22,155 bases of DNA from positions 1 to 22,155 of the IMG/VR virus record IMGVR_UViG_3300025009_000386; one strand, given 5' to 3'. This document shows, in pieces, positions 11,270 to 20,627 of the stretch. This DNA is from a virus. The translations under genes were made by a program, and so were the position numbers. Numbering within the stretch: the first letter of the stretch is position 1; each line of letters opens with the position of its first letter. Under the pieces are notes generated by a model that saw only the letters and a program-made list of their open reading frames with translations, made no database searches and had not been told where the DNA came from.

Positions 11270-13045
11270 TTAACTAAATACTGAGAATGAAAAATTATTT
11301 GCTGCGAATAATAAATCTGAATTTGTTCTTGCTGTTGCCATCAATAATGAAGACAATTCATCTGGAGATTTCTTTAATACTTTTTTTAATTCATCGTTTG
11401 ATATAACTTGAATTTGATTTTTAGCATTTTTCTTATAGACCATTGCAGCCAATGCTTTTTTTAAATCTTCTGAGAACTTTAATAATATTGGAGGCTTTTC
11501 TGAATTTCTTGGGTCGAGCATTTCTCTCAACCTCCACATATTTTCATCTCTCTTACAGTAAAACTGTTTTTTTAAATCTTCTGTTTCTTTAACCTGTTCA
11601 CTGGTAATTGCGTTTTCGTATCCGCAACCTCCACCAGATTGTATTTTTATAATAGGTAAGTTATAATCAGAAATACATATATCTGCTATTGGATTACCTA
11701 TTGCATCTCTTTCAATTCTTATTTCTTTTGGCTTATATGTTTCATAAACTTCTTTTATTTTTTCAATCAACGGTCTTGCAGATAAGTTAAATTGTTCTCT
11801 GTATATTTCTTTGTTTCCGTTTAATATTGAGATACTTGAGTTATCTGCTCCTAATCCTGCTGCAACGTCAACTCCCATTATTATGTCGCCAACTATATGT
11901 TTATCAGGATTATTGTAATTGTTGAAAGATTGAATATACCAATCATAAGGGAATAAAGAAGCGTCATTTTCGTCTGGGAATTCTGCTAAAACCCTTGTCT
12001 TGAATTCGTAGTGTTGTGGGTTCATGCCACAAGAGAACAATTCATCATATACTTCAAAGGGATTTACAATATGTGTGCAGAATGGTAATACTATTTTTGC
12101 TATTTGTTTATGAAGAGAATCTTGAGCTGGAGTTTTTATTTTTTTATGAGGAAATACTTCTTTTATTTTTACTTCAAGCTCTTCAATTGAGTTTATATTA
12201 AGTGGAGCAAAATCAGATATATTGGTTTCTTTATATTTTGTGATAACATATCTGTCAATTTTATTTCGCCAATAAGATTTATCGTTTTCTTCTTTTAAAT
12301 AATCTTCTAATTTTAAATCTAGTTCTATAAAAACATGTGTCTGGAAAGCAGATATGTGAACTTTGTGATATGTGGAGTTGTTTCCAAATGATTCGTAAAA
12401 CTGTCCACTTTTTCCATCTGGTAATGTAGTGTTGCCTATCATTACCTGTTTTACTATTGCCCCAGACTTTGTTATTCCTTTAAAATCAGAATAAGCCGTC
12501 TCTGTAACGCCTTGTGCTTCATCATAGATAACCAAAACATAAGTTCCATGCTTTCCTGATAGTTGGTTATCTTTTTTGTTAGATGTTACACCTTTTATAT
12601 AATCTTTTTTTCTATTAGGTAAAGATATTTGAGCTACATTTCTGTCTCCAGATACTTTGCCTACAAATTTTACACCTTCACCAAATTTTTCAGTTATATG
12701 TGTGTTTGCTGATTCTATGAATTGACATACTTGAGAAAATATATTGTCTCTTACTTGGTCAAATGATGGAGCTGTAAATATTATTATTACATTCCTATCT
12801 GGATTAGGGTCTAAATAACAAAAGAAAAACCAAAGTATTAAAGCTGACAAGATATATGATTTTCCCGAAGAATTGCAAGACCTGATAGATACTTTTTCAA
12901 AATCTCTTATCGCATCTATTATCTGTTTTTGGTGGATTGGGAGCTTTATTCCTAACACTTCTTCTAAAAATAAATTAGGGTATTCTCTCCAAACAGGTCT
13001 TCTCTCGTAGAAACTTATTAATTCTTTTTGTTTGTCTCTTGACAT
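11270..13045 (-). CDS. terL: Terminase large subunit
   Basis: A 591-residue packaging motor. The N-terminal ATPase has a Walker A-type loop SCNSSGKS (residues 56-63) and a Walker B motif LVIYDEAQG (residues 171-179, Asp175/Glu176). A coupling motif candidate is MIGNTT at about 202-207. The C-terminal RNase H-like nuclease begins IMGVDVAAGLGADNSS (first acidic residue Asp393), followed by a second acidic site in RIERDAIGNP (Asp447) and candidate final acidic residues near the C-terminus. All key parts are present, so it looks functional. It binds the portal and cuts concatemeric DNA. A 190-bp leader with a promoter-like extended -10 box and a dyad precedes it. The start is ATG 13045 with a weak GAGA site. 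Confidence 0.95.
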   Translation of the reverse strand: MSRDKQKELISFYERRPVWREYPNLFLEEVLGIKLPIHQKQIIDAIRDFEKVSIRSCNSSGKSYILSALILWFFFCYLDPNPDRNVIIIFTAPSFDQVRDNIFSQVCQFIESANTHITEKFGEGVKFVGKVSGDRNVAQISLPNRKKDYIKGVTSNKKDNQLSGKHGTYVLVIYDEAQGVTETAYSDFKGITKSGAIVKQVMIGNTTLPDGKSGQFYESFGNNSTYHKVHISAFQTHVFIELDLKLEDYLKEENDKSYWRNKIDRYVITKYKETNISDFAPLNINSIEELEVKIKEVFPHKKIKTPAQDSLHKQIAKIVLPFCTHIVNPFEVYDELFSCGMNPQHYEFKTRVLAEFPDENDASLFPYDWYIQSFNNYNNPDKHIVGDIIMGVDVAAGLGADNSSISILNGNKEIYREQFNLSARPLIEKIKEVYETYKPKEIRIERDAIGNPIADICISDYNLPIIKIQSGGGCGYENAITSEQVKETEDLKKQFYCKRDENMWRLREMLDPRNSEKPPILLKFSEDLKKALAAMVYKKNAKNQIQVISNDELKKVLKKSPDELSSLLMATARTNSDLLFAANNFSFSVFS

Positions 13046-13193: not shown

Positions 13194-13216
13194 ATTATAG
13201 CATGTTTTTTATAAAA
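13194..13216 (-). promoter_or_regulatory. Extended -10 promoter upstream of terminase
   Basis: The minus strand reads ATGC then TATAAT (13199-13194), an extended -10 box, preceded by an A-rich tract. No -35 match is visible. Nearly the same element stands upstream of 14931 and at 18954, and the bases downstream of the -10 also match between this copy and the one at 14969. It would drive the packaging, head and tail genes. Confidence 0.55.
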
Positions 13217-17956: not shown

Positions 17957-18282
17957 TGATGAAAGACAACAAAGAAATCAAAAAGAAGAAACTAACAAGA
18001 ACAGAGATGGAGACAACAATCAATTACAATGATTTATCAGACAATGCAGATATTTATACACATAATCCTGCGTTGATAAGGAAGCTGAATATATGTTGTG
18101 AGAAACATCCTGAATCATTCAAGATGATAAAGTACGATGCTGAATTTGGAAGTTATTGCTATGTTGTTCCAAAGAAATATATCAAGGTGAATGCTCCGAG
18201 AAAAGGCATGACGGAAGAACAGAAAGAAGCTGTTTCAGAAAGATTTAAAAAGTTGAGAGAAGCAGAAGATAATATGTTATAA
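17953..18282 (+). CDS. Conserved phage hypothetical protein
   Basis: A 109-residue protein beginning MMMKDNKEIKKKK; the ATG at 17953 overlaps the previous TGA. A longer in-frame start at 17908 would lie inside the FmdB-like gene and lacks a ribosome site. The body (ETTINYNDLSDNADIYTHNP, then RKLNICCEKHPESFKMIKYD, SYCYVVPKKYIKVNAPRKG and MTEEQKEAVSERFKKL) matches a small protein I recall as common in Firmicutes phages and prophages, where it lies among early or accessory genes. Its fold is probably beta with a helical tail; function unknown. Last gene of the plus operon. Confidence 0.75.
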   Translation: MMMKDNKEIKKKKLTRTEMETTINYNDLSDNADIYTHNPALIRKLNICCEKHPESFKMIKYDAEFGSYCYVVPKKYIKVNAPRKGMTEEQKEAVSERFKKLREAEDNML

Positions 18283-18470: not shown

Positions 18471-18510
18471 GCATATATGATATTTATAATTGGTAACATA
18501 TAAAATATAT

Positions 18511-18532
18511 TATATTTATTAGAATTATTCTA
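18511..18532. repeat. Inverted repeat ATTAGAAT-T-ATTCTAAT
   Basis: Eight-base perfect arms with a single-base centre. It opens the repeat region; half of it (TTAGAAT) recurs inside the 25-bp direct repeats further right. Confidence 0.5.
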
Positions 18533-18547
18533 ATTAGACTAAATATT

Positions 18548-18890
18548 AACTTATATCTATTAACTAAATACAATAACTTATTACTTAACTTACTACTAAC
18601 TTAATACTAATTAACTAAATTATATAACTTACTACAATTTAACTTACTCCAATTAACTTATATCTAATTAGAATAATACATTAACTTATTACTAAACTAA
18701 ATACATAACTAAATACTTAATTAGAATAATACATTAACTTATAACATAATTAACTTACTACTTATTAACTGACTACAATATAACTTAATACATATTAACT
18801 AAATACAATAACTTATATCTTAACTTACTACATAGAATAATACATAACTTACTACTAACTAAATACTTATTAGACTAATATATTAACTTA
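18548..18890. repeat. AACTWA repeat array, G-depleted on the plus strand
   Basis: By eye at least 21 copies of AACTTA or AACTAA plus one AACTGA. Starts include 18548, 18562, 18575, 18587, 18598, 18613, 18626, 18641, 18655, 18683, 18695, 18707, 18736, 18752, 18782, 18797, 18810, 18822, 18846, 18857 and 18885. Most neighbours are 11-16 bp apart, and the larger steps are about double that. The plus strand has only a handful of G in some 340 bases while C stays common. It looks like an iteron or protein-binding array, or a deliberately unstructured stretch. Confidence 0.7.
18665..18742 (+). repeat. 25-bp direct repeat pair
   Basis: The same 25 bases, with core TTAGAATAATACATTAACTT, occur at 18665-18689 and 18718-18742, 53 bp apart. 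A shorter relative is at 18832-18850. They lie inside the AACTWA array and imply local duplication. Confidence 0.75.
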
Positions 18891-18904
18891 ATACTAATTA
18901 GAAT

Positions 18905-18920
18905 AACACTATAAAGTGTT
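18905..18920. repeat. Hairpin AACACT-ATAA-AGTGTT
   Basis: Six-base perfect arms with a four-base loop, directly left of the 22-bp palindrome. Confidence 0.5.
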
Positions 18921-18928
18921 ATATATAA

Positions 18929-18950
18929 ATGTTACCTATATAGGTAACAT
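18929..18950. repeat. Perfect 22-bp palindrome
   Basis: Half-site ATGTTACCTAT followed at once by its reverse complement. GGTAACATATAA from its right half is repeated at about 18492-18503. It abuts the extended -10 element at 18954, where an operator would be expected. Confidence 0.75.
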
Positions 18951-18953
18951 ATA

Positions 18954-18972
18954 ATTATAGCATGTTTTTAGA
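18954..18972 (-). promoter_or_regulatory. Third copy of the ATGC-TATAAT promoter-like element
   Basis: The minus strand reads AAAAACATGC then TATAAT (18959-18954), matching the element before the terminase gene. It would send transcription leftward across the AACTWA array, where no gene lies, so any product would be noncoding. The 22-bp palindrome covers the predicted start point. Confidence 0.45.
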
Positions 18973-19112
18973 AAAAGTTCCTAAAATAAATAATTAATTT
19001 TTCCAACTTTATATTTTAGTCTAAATTAACTAAAATTTTTTTCATGCAAATTTTGGGATAAATATGTGGGGAGTACCATGCTAACATCAATTTAACTAAT
19101 AACATTTATAGG

Positions 19113-19132
19113 GGAGGGGATAACCTCCTTTA
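19113..19132 (+). repeat. G-rich hairpin GGAGG...CCTCC
   Basis: GGAGG, six-base loop, CCTCC, preceded by a further G run. It is the most GC-rich spot of the region and so stands out. On the minus strand it reads AAAGGAGG, a ribosome-site look-alike, but no frame follows it. Confidence 0.4.
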
Positions 19133-19172
19133 CATATGTTATATTAATTAGATTTATACTAGTATGAACTTG

Positions 19173-19200
19173 GCATGCTCATGCAGTTACGACTGCATGC
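19173..19200. repeat. Hairpin family A, copy 1
   Basis: GCATGCTC followed by CATGCAGT-TACG-ACTGCATG (19180-19199), eight-base perfect arms and a four-base loop. Copy 2 is at 19557-19585 with a compensating change in the stem. Confidence 0.7.
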
Positions 19201-19272
19201 TTAAAATTTTACTGGAGTAAATAATAATAATTTTAGTTAAATATTTTAGTTATTATTTTAAAGTTATTTGTT

Positions 19273-19292
19273 TAACCATGCCGGCATGGTTA
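19273..19292. repeat. Perfect 20-bp palindrome
   Basis: TAACCATGCCGGCATGGTTA, its own reverse complement. The centre GCCGGC is unusual in such AT-rich DNA. Confidence 0.75.
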
Positions 19293-19437
19293 TATCGTTA
19301 TAAGTTAACAATAGTCTAATAATTAACATGCCTGTATCAAGTAACTATATCTATTAGAAATAGTCCGATAATAATTATTATGTAATTAGTTAAGTTATAA
19401 GTTTAATGTATAACCATTTAAACTTGATGCTATAGGC

Positions 19438-19488
19438 TTTATATTAAACTTATTACTTAACTTATATCTGATATAAGTTTAATATAAA
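19438..19488. repeat. Long hairpin with 15-bp perfect arms
   Basis: TTTATATTAAACTTA (19438-19452) pairs with TAAGTTTAATATAAA (19474-19488). A second, competing hairpin AACTTATATC-T-GATATAAGTT (19459-19479) overlaps its loop and right arm, so the region could switch between two folds. Confidence 0.7.
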
Positions 19489-19518
19489 ATTTTGCTTAGC
19501 TCTTACGGCTGCAAAATT
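19488..19518. repeat. Hairpin AATTTTGC ... GCAAAATT
   Basis: Eight-base perfect arms with a 15-base loop that itself contains AGC...GCT. It directly follows the 15-bp hairpin and shares one base with it. Confidence 0.55.
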
Positions 19519-19556
19519 ATAATTATTAAATTGAACTAAAAACAATTAGAATTATA

Positions 19557-19585
19557 TGAGCATGCTCATGCGGTAATTACCGCAT
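19557..19585. repeat. Hairpin family A, copy 2
   Basis: TGAGCATGCTCA (a 12-bp palindrome) overlapping ATGCGGTAATTACCGCAT (19568-19585, an 18-bp perfect palindrome). Compared with copy 1, the stem pair A-T has become G-C and the loop TACG has become AATT, while the flanking GCATGCTC is kept. Confidence 0.7.
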
Positions 19586-19602
19586 ACCACGCACTATAAA
19601 AA

Positions 19603-19617
19603 GATTACAAGGTAATC
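19603..19617. repeat. Hairpin GATTAC-AAG-GTAATC
   Basis: Six-base perfect arms with a three-base loop. Confidence 0.5.
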
Positions 19618-19725
19618 AATATATAAATGCGTAACATGTAATGTAAAGATTTTATAAATATTATTCATTATATTTTACACTATATGAGCATGCTTATTGT
19701 ACTTATTACTTATTAGAGTTATATA

Positions 19726-19742
19726 CATACAGTTCATGTATG
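19726..19742. repeat. Hairpin family B, copy 1
   Basis: CATACAGTTCATGTATG: six-base stem, five-base loop. It differs from the copy at 20159 by one compensated stem pair (T-A instead of C-G) and one loop base. Confidence 0.7.
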
Positions 19743-19752
19743 TGTAATTATT

Positions 19753-19769
19753 TGTAACATTTTGTTACA
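19753..19769. repeat. Hairpin TGTAAC-ATTTT-GTTACA
   Basis: Six-base perfect arms with a five-base loop, 10 bp right of family B copy 1. Confidence 0.5.
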
Positions 19770-19802
19770 TTACTTAATATATAATTCATAGGCTAAGTTA
19801 TG

Positions 19803-19856
19803 TTAGTATACATTTTGTAGATTAGTCTAACGACTAATAATTTATTTGTATACTAA
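19803..19856. repeat. Nested double hairpin
   Basis: Outer arms TTAGTATACA (19803-19812) and TGTATACTAA (19847-19856), perfect over 10 bp, enclose an inner hairpin ATTAGTC-TAAC-GACTAAT (19821-19838). Two stacked perfect stems in 54 bases are hard to explain by AT content alone. Confidence 0.7.
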
Positions 19857-19934
19857 ACTTTAGACTTAGACTAAAAGACTTACTCCTCATGGGTAATTGA
19901 CTAATGATTTAAATTTGTGGTACTCCTCAGTTTT

Positions 19935-19977
19935 GTAAAATACAATCTGCAAAGGATTGCATATAAAGTTTTACAGA
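19935..19977. repeat. Nested hairpin TGTAAAA ... TTTTACA
   Basis: Seven-base outer arms enclose CAATC-TGCAAAG-GATTG. It lies just after TGGTACTCC (about 19918), whose reverse complement GGAGTACCA stands at about 19075-19083, 840 bp to the left, so the two could pair over a long distance. Confidence 0.45.
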
Positions 19978-20032
19978 CACCACCCCGTTGTAACTTACTG
20001 CAATTAAAACTGTTAAGAGGCTCATGCTATCG

Positions 20033-20048
20033 CAATTGCATGCAATTG
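20033..20048. repeat. Perfect 16-bp palindrome
   Basis: CAATTGCATGCAATTG, its own reverse complement. Confidence 0.65.
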
Positions 20049-20158
20049 TAATATATAACTTACTATAAACTATACAAGTTAAACCTAAGGTATATAGCAA
20101 AGCCATAGACAGCTTTAAATATATTAGTATATAATCCTATTCAAAAGCATTCAAAGTT

Positions 20159-20175
20159 CACACAGTCCATGTGTG
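20159..20175. repeat. Hairpin family B, copy 2
   Basis: CACACAGTCCATGTGTG: six-base stem CACACA/TGTGTG and loop GTCCA. The loop and lower stem are the same as in the copies at 20240 and 21824. Confidence 0.75.
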
Positions 20176-20239
20176 ATAGTAAGTTTTTTAATATATATCT
20201 AGCTATACAGCTTTATTATAATTCTTATAATCAAGTTAA

Positions 20240-20255
20240 ACACAGTCCATGTGTG
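20240..20255. repeat. Hairpin family B, copy 3
   Basis: ACACAGTCCATGTGTG followed by GTT. It matches the copy at 21824-21839 read on the other strand over about 18 bases. Confidence 0.75.
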
Positions 20256-20272
20256 GTTAGTTATATTGGTAA

Positions 20273-20292
20273 ATTGGTATTGATATACCAAT
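20273..20292. repeat. Hairpin ATTGGTAT-TGAT-ATACCAAT
   Basis: Eight-base perfect arms with a four-base loop, immediately beyond the minus-strand terminator. Confidence 0.55.
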
Positions 20293-20302
20293 ATAAATAT
20301 AT

Positions 20303-20351: not shown

Positions 20352-20627
20352 TTACTTAAGACTAATAAATCTATCTTTTTTAATATTCTTATAAATTCTT
20401 ATAACTTGTAAATCTTTGGTTAGATGGTTATAGACTAATTTAATTTTATTATTTTCAAGATGTGTCCATGATAATCGTCTATATTTCATAAAATTATCAT
20501 TATTGTTTTTATTTTCAATATTTAAAAATATAGCTCTCAATCTTTTTTTTTGTTAGTTAATTTTATGTAAGTTTTTTAAATTAACAAAATATAAAATATT
20601 ATTACTTGGCATAAATCGTTTATACAT
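20352..20627 (-). pseudogene. Small gene interrupted by one in-frame TAA
   Basis: ATG 20627 has an excellent AAAGGAG site and reads MYKRFMPSNNILYFVNLKNL and a few more residues to TAA at 20553-20555 (24 residues). The same frame then continues open for about 66 codons (KKRLRAIFLNIENK ... RLSWTHLENNKIKLVYNHLT ... IKKDRFISLK) to 20352. A nine-A run follows the stop. The simplest view is a nonsense mutation in a 90-residue basic gene. Alternatives are readthrough or a re-start at TTG 20540, which lacks a ribosome site. No family is recognised. Confidence 0.55.

Follow-up and report, generated by a model that had tools for sequence, protein, structure and literature searches.

Among described phage replication origins, those of SPP1 and T4 come closest to the locus reported here. 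SPP1 oriR and oriL share direct repeats and an AT-rich unwinding element, with oriR being intergenic (PMC6316719), and oriR has been proposed to act as a fork barrier and in the switch to concatemer replication (PMC3485210). In T4, oriF and oriG combine a middle-mode promoter with a downstream unwinding element and are primed through an R-loop (PMC3016281). Our locus is the gene-free interval 18283−20351 of a 22,155-bp virus record (IMG/VR IMGVR_UViG_3300025009_000386; this whole stretch is called the window). Judging from its sequence, we see an even chance that the interval is the second of two replication-origin modules of this phage, with a field of structured hairpins attached to it. Its layout is likened to the SPP1 and T4 origins because it has repeats, an AT-rich melting element and a promoter-like motif, and exists in two copies at transcription switches, one of them near replisome genes.

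The interval is bordered on the left by a rightward operon (15083−18282), whose last open reading frame (ORF) ends at 18282, and on the right by leftward small genes, the first ORF of which ends at 20352. An earlier note on this DNA had described positions 18471−20302 as a gene-free, hairpin-dense region between converging operons, possibly a large RNA, an origin or partition locus, or a binding platform. Its description of position and gene content is borne out: the ORFs of at least 40 aa inside this region measure 44 and 59 aa, a 48-aa ORF spans 20169−20315, and the interval holds no plausible gene. A hidden gene was considered and rejected, the ORFs there being at most 59 aa; the two strains were compared there at the DNA level. 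Counting as strong any hairpin with a perfect stem of at least 7 bp, a loop of 3−8 and a hydrogen-bond score of at least 17, we found 9 in 18471−20302. One hundred dinucleotide shuffles averaged 0.89 such hairpins (sd 1.02) and never had more than 5, so the density survives the shuffled-sequence control suggested in the note. This density holds for the region as a whole but not for its left part: 18471−18929 has a single strong hairpin, at its right edge, and about 18500−18900 is a hairpin-poor repeat array overlooked at first reading, with 18500−18955 folding at z-scores of merely −1.5 (plus strand) and −2.3 (minus strand). The interval is made of two parts, a module of repeats and promoter-like motif (about 18500−18990) and the hairpin field (18990−20302).

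Protein scans of IMG/VR yielded a single close relative, contig IMGVR_UViG_3300025000_000064 (123,605 bp; G001 hereafter). It is 99.0% identical to the window over positions 1−19475, 75.6% over 19447−20317 and 92−94% over 21839−22155, and 20318−21382 has no match in it at E 1e-4. With ORFs of at least 60 aa counted, the counterpart of our interval is, at 2,406 bp, the largest gene-free gap of G001, and the second-largest is 848 bp long (87,997−88,844). The evidence given below comes from these two strains and two loci and is entirely computational; protein scans against Pfam or PHROGs covered 12 window proteins and 44 of the 189 G001 ORFs, two of which were cut off by the edge of a locus. The features of the module and its borders are as follows.

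18401−18475, plus strand: terminator-like hairpin at the end of operon 15083−18282, with 30-nt arms 77% complementary and a T-rich tail; its terminator role was judged by eye, and the site is absent from the terminator-scan list
18500−18902, no strand assigned: degenerate 12-bp repeat array of about 25 units, TTAACTTANTAC / TTAGAATAATAC, with a spacing of mostly 12−16 bp
18903−18922, no strand assigned: leader hairpin 2, with one compensated pair, C-G in the window and T-A at both G001 loci
18929−18950, no strand assigned: leader hairpin 1, a 22-bp palindrome common to the copy at 88 kb of G001 except for one loop base
18954−18975, minus strand: promoter-like motif TTTTNTAAAAANATGYTATAAT, facing left so as to read into both hairpins and then the array
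18990−20302, no strand assigned: hairpin field of dense palindromes and stem-loops, with pairing preserved beyond chance and several segments found in one strain only
20308−20329, minus strand: intrinsic-terminator-like site, listed by the terminator scan, for the leftward gene set to its right

Array units take the form TTAACTTANTAC, TTAACTAAATAC or TTAGAATAATAC and are spaced 11−16 bp apart, with some gaps of 24−27 bp; 25 were recognised in the window, 26 at 26.0−26.4 kb of G001 and 19 at 88.2−88.56 kb. The plus strand of the arrays contains only 1.9−3.5% G (1.9% in the window). The sole other such array in G001 lies at 88.19−88.56 kb, inside its second-largest gap. Across G001, 500-bp bins with at least three units are confined to the two array loci, where the units share one strand, and to the field next to the array (3 on plus by a narrower pattern, 4 on minus by a broader one), and the densest 400 bp holds 26 units (25 in the window) against at most 7 outside the arrays, in the field at 26.9 kb. 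A 143-bp end block comprising the end of the array, the two hairpins and the promoter-like motif is 97.2% identical between the two loci, unlike the array blocks, which are rearranged. Each copy is found at a switch in transcription direction, and the second has the genes for thymidine kinase, DnaG, DnaB, ligase and DNA polymerase III alpha within about 12 kb.

Both arrays are also predicted to melt easily. By nearest-neighbour free energy (at a 400-bp width chosen to fit the array), they rank first and second among the 400-bp segments of G001, with 0.990 and 0.995 compared with a mean of 1.166 (sd 0.045), and the array at 18500−18902 is the most easily melted 400 bp of the window. Of the options put forward in the earlier note, that of an origin or binding array gains specific support for the left third of the region, from the two-copy module, the promoter-like motif, the hairpins and the lowest 400-bp duplex stability in G001; a single large RNA, which has no Rfam match, is not established.

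On the minus strand the block at the array reads TTTTCTAAAAACATGCTATAAT. Allowing up to 2 mismatches, TTTTNTAAAAANATGYTATAAT occurs at 3 sites in the window where 0.01 would be expected by chance. One (13194−13215) lies ahead of the terminase gene (ORF 11270−13045, named from matches to annotated terminases), another (14969−14990) lies inside a TTG-started ORF (14446−15018) ahead of its first in-frame ATG (14931), and the third, at the array, is exact, as is the copy at the second array. The whole of G001 has six matches, the four on the minus strand being the counterparts of the three window sites and the second-array copy. We infer that the motif serves late genes and is active; transcription from the predicted motif would start near 18947 and run leftward through the two hairpins and the array. 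Promoters of the form TTGACA-(16−18)-TATAMT number four in G001, two of which flank the second array divergently, pointing outward. None occurs in the window interval, and the single window match is at 13039−13066 on the plus strand. This consensus sigma-70 promoter, which overlaps the beginning of the terminase gene, faces right and so opposes the minus-strand motif at 13194−13215; it could make a short antisense RNA.

As in SPP1, two distant loci carry the same kind of short direct repeats, and an AT-rich unwinding element is predicted at each (ranks 1 and 2 of G001 at 400 bp). Unlike SPP1, the copies here have 19−26 degenerate 12-bp repeats, a shared promoter-like motif and two hairpins each; they lie about 62 kb apart along G001 compared with 12−13 kb in SPP1, and whereas SPP1 recruits the host primase and polymerase, the phage studied here encodes its own. 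We know of no counterpart of the hairpin field in SPP1 (PMC6316719, PMC3485210). The promoter-like motif reading into an AT-rich unwinding element resembles T4 oriF and oriG at the sequence level, and several T4 origins lie near transcription-strand switches (PMC3016281), as do both arrays. Here, however, the two copies are nearly identical, whereas oriF and oriG share little homology. The motif, known here from sequence alone, is likened to T4 by layout and not as a MotA site.

We propose that a minus-strand phage promoter would start a short leader carrying the two hairpins and then transcribe the iteron-like array of about 400 bp, which would combine binding sites for a phage initiator with a DNA-unwinding element. 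The transcript would open or prime the array through an R-loop, so that a replisome of phage DnaB, DnaG and DnaE could load; DnaB, DnaG, DNA polymerase III alpha, ATP-dependent DNA ligase and thymidine kinase are among the G001 proteins scanned, and the phage encodes a sigma-factor relative. The copy between early divergent promoters (G001 88.2−88.6 kb) would then be the early origin, and the copy between converging units, that of the window interval, a second origin firing late or a fork barrier, as proposed for SPP1 oriR. In this scheme the 1.3-kb field may belong to the second locus as a structured accessory, working as a folded single strand of DNA or RNA. What the sequence itself gives is a module in two copies with a promoter-like motif common to both, the melting minimum, flanks that resemble terminators, and constrained pairing. 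Origin activity, the R-loop, the initiator, the timing, promoter activity and any role of the field are interpretations placed upon them.

Several observations weigh against the twin-origin proposal. No initiator, gp38-like as in SPP1 or other, was recognised in the 44 of 189 G001 ORFs and 12 window proteins scanned. At widths of 100 and 200 bp the arrays fall within the ten lowest segments but are not the two lowest, with segments near 29.8 and 34.2 kb of G001 lying below them. The potential for an R-loop is weak, since the transcript strand, although it has G and is poor in C, shows no clusters of G. Array units are not strictly phased (12−16 bp plus gaps of 24−27 bp), leader hairpin 1 itself scores as a minus-strand terminator-like site, and the motif has two further, plus-strand matches in G001 (95,760 and 117,205, with 2 mismatches each). 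The 1.3-kb field is missing at the 88-kb copy, which indicates that the module does not need it. We also downgraded an arrangement of near-antipodal origin and terminus: the arrays would be 62.2 and 61.4 kb apart around a circular G001, but this spacing is merely suggestive because a contig from another metagenome (L101, 3300025010) extends at least 744 bp beyond the point where G001 begins, entering a repeat of the region at 113 kb and leaving the circle unclosed. Within G001, a 231-bp repeat of 95.7% identity lies at 1−231, from the first base onward, and at 113557−113787.

Searches for further relatives returned little beyond G001. IMG/VR protein scans with the two flanking proteins, the terminase and a 298-aa protein beside the second array found G001 alone or nothing; the predicted structure of the 298-aa protein had a mean pLDDT of 35.5 and was not used. 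A DNA polymerase scan of IMG/VR gave 39 loci, namely G001 and 38 distant ones of at most 38% identity, and none of the 38 has the array (at most 3 units per 400 bp). GenBank phages gave no DNA match and only protein matches below 60% identity. The hairpin patterns were found in two IMG/VR stretches, both of G001, and in no genomes. The array pattern was found in 7 viral stretches, two of them G001, and in 29 genome stretches; unit counts and inspection by eye showed the other 5 viral and the 29 genome stretches to be shorter or near-perfect tandem repeats, with at most 11 units compared with 18 for the window by the same counting. At the level of listings, we found nothing on point in the literature on mobile hairpins in phages or on iteron origins.

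The palindromes listed in the earlier note are all present, with lengths of 22 bp (18929−18950), 20 bp (19273−19292), 18 bp (19568−19585) and 16 bp (20033−20048). So are the paired arms at 19438 and 19473 (16 nt, 100% complementary), which overlap a competing hairpin at 19459−19479, and those at 19803 and 19832 (72% complementary over 25 nt). When the field is aligned between the strains, nearly unchanged blocks, several of them 60−130 nt long, alternate with replaced or inserted segments. Four of its elements recur in the discussion below.

19067−19077 (5' arm) with 19919−19929 (3' arm), plus strand: long-range 11-bp complementarity, perfect in G001 and with one G-U in the window
19109−19132, plus strand: GC-rich terminator-like hairpin with a GGATAA loop and right arm CCTCCTTT, identical in both strains
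20020−20043, plus strand: 24-bp hairpin element, absent at the same G001 site and present there in opposite orientation about 90 bp away
20158−20176, plus strand: hairpin with a GTCCA loop, the G001 site being empty

The CCTCCTTT arm presumably resembles the 3' end of 16S rRNA (anti-Shine-Dalgarno). The complement of this arm has the look of a Shine-Dalgarno sequence, and inspection by eye showed no conserved reading frame following it.

Pairing in the field is constrained, to judge from the two sequences, and the support is alike on both strands, favouring neither. In two-sequence folding (60 column shuffles, 160-column windows), z-scores range from about 0 to −6 on both strands and fall below −2.5 in many windows, though not in all. 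We then took the structure of one sequence, re-placed the substitutions randomly within blocks in 500 simulations, and counted broken pairs over 18990−20300. Fewer were observed than expected in each case: 59 compared with 82.7 for the window plus strand, 57 with 78.6 for its minus strand, 72 with 84.6 for the G001 plus strand and 58 with 81.0 for its minus strand, values reached in at most 3.4% of the simulations. Pairing is thus kept better than chance in the related phage, the control that the earlier note had asked for, here with one relative. Sub-regions are weaker, with 1.6% to 21.8% for 18990−19440 and below 0.1% for 19440−20300, except for the G001 plus strand (11.2%). Double changes that keep pairing clearly exceed the simulations with window structures only. 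In the two-sequence consensus, whose counts are biased towards pairing and rest on an alignment that is uncertain in variable blocks, 11 pairs changed on both sides on the plus strand and 6 on the minus strand; 141 pairs are common to both strands (span limit 80), and the 4 of these that changed all did so on both sides. A wholesale compensation of the hairpin at 19587−19637 was considered and dropped: only its outer pair, 19592−19629, is strictly compensated, and the inner stem shifts register.

It is possible, though in our view unlikely, that the field 18990−20302, perhaps on its plus strand, encodes a new large structured RNA of about the size of ROOL and GOLLD and with variable peripheral hairpins around conserved blocks. 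GOLLD and ROOL are likewise large, structure-rich, gene-free phage segments (PMC12286853). Folding of 19050−19960 is very stable, each strand scoring below all 20 of its shuffles (z −7.8 for the plus and −11.4 for the minus strand), broken pairs are fewer than chance, and the both-side changes of the consensus are more numerous on the plus strand. Three cases chosen by eye would pair on the plus strand only: the long-range 11-bp helix, altered only where A-U became G-U, a pair at 19155−19166 that went from C-G to U-G, and two G-U pairs in the hairpin at 19109−19132. However, minus-strand structure is equally supported, wobble asymmetry left the choice between a plus- and a minus-strand RNA undecided, and several hairpins exist in one strain only. 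The Rfam check proposed in the earlier note (ROOL, GOLLD and others) was negative, with no covariance model matching at its gathering score, and a permissive search of the interval (E up to 5) returned three weak hits to eukaryotic miRNA and snoRNA families. The field has no TTGACA-(16−18)-TATAMT promoter, promoter-like sites in 18200−20700 are at background (27 compared with 24.0, sd 4.6), the best of them (20106−20135, plus strand, 11 of 12 matches) is not kept in G001, and there is no plus-strand terminator-like site at the right end. Unlike GOLLD and ROOL, then, the segment has no Rfam match and no consensus promoter, its two strands are equally supported, and no tRNA gene accompanies it; neither tRNA nor tmRNA genes were found in the window or the G001 pieces, such proximity being frequent but not obligatory for ROOL and GOLLD.

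The field does not look like one fixed architecture, judging from the two strains, and a second alternative is that it is mostly a functionless landing zone for small mobile or self-correcting palindromes, tolerated between converging units. The 24-bp hairpin stands at one window site and, in opposite orientation, at three G001 sites (27644−27667, 31162−31185 and 36125−36147). The 16-nt core of the hairpin at 20158−20176 recurs at 20240−20255 and 21824−21839, giving three window sites with no G001 match, and one hairpin-bearing segment of 23 nt has an empty counterpart in the other strain. Quasi-palindrome correction, moreover, can mimic covariation. We nevertheless hold this explanation to be improbable. 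The alignment of 18283−20350 contains 11 indels of at least 6 nt, all from 19171 rightward, of which two carry a strong hairpin and two a weak one; the 24-bp element is carried by two of the indels, and 93% of background segments fold better than the longest indel (74 nt). The nearly unchanged blocks also argue against it, as does the persistence of the field as a gene-free kilobase in both strains.

ParR, TubR and omega-type proteins are partition or regulatory proteins that bind arrays of this kind, and type II and III partition loci (ParMRC, TubZRC) have a cytomotive ATPase or GTPase gene beside the array. That our array is a centromere or a nucleoprotein-assembly site for partition or gene regulation, and not an origin, would fit its degenerate short repeats in AT-rich DNA, the position of both copies where transcription switches direction, and a 54-aa protein (21839−22003) with a homologue in G001 that matches ribbon-helix-helix proteins weakly (E 0.16, below the cut-off and not the top hit). 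It is decidedly improbable, given that the 44 of 189 G001 ORFs and 12 window proteins scanned include no segregation or cytomotive ATPase or GTPase and that we know of no centromere with a promoter-like motif reading into its array.

If the twin-origin proposal is true, its signature is an array at the melting minimum that occurs twice, each time with the same promoter-like motif and at a point where transcription changes direction. Such a signature could serve to locate paired origins in uncultured phages from their sequence, and the two loci would allow a study of R-loop origins that come in pairs and between which sequence is exchanged. A more speculative extension, which we hold to be quite improbable, is that the second of these twin R-loop origins has acquired a 1.3-kb partner of fast-turning hairpins that works as a structured nucleic acid, whether as a large RNA of a new kind or as single-stranded DNA that folds where the fork exposes it, and controls the switch from early to late replication. 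The field, which differs by whole hairpins between close phages, is useful for asking whether such hairpins are selected structures or small mobile elements.

Other regions of G001 yielded four minor observations. Two similar long hairpins, at 30305−30331 and 49873−49899 (AAAAGAGCCTA...TAGGCTCTTTT), look like bidirectional terminators. A transposase gene with a PHROG match (102471−103619; L023:2471−3619), which we take to be TnpB-like, lies between a 242-aa gene and a 63-aa ORF that resembles the C-terminal part of the 242-aa gene. The UvrD-family helicase gene at 92474−95209 (L022:12474−15209) contains an intein-like insert with a LAGLIDADG homing endonuclease domain. Finally, the ORF at 74240−74818 (L021:14240−14818) has a strong match to corrinoid adenosyltransferase (BtuR/CobO, E 3.7e-50) and is a possible auxiliary metabolic gene.

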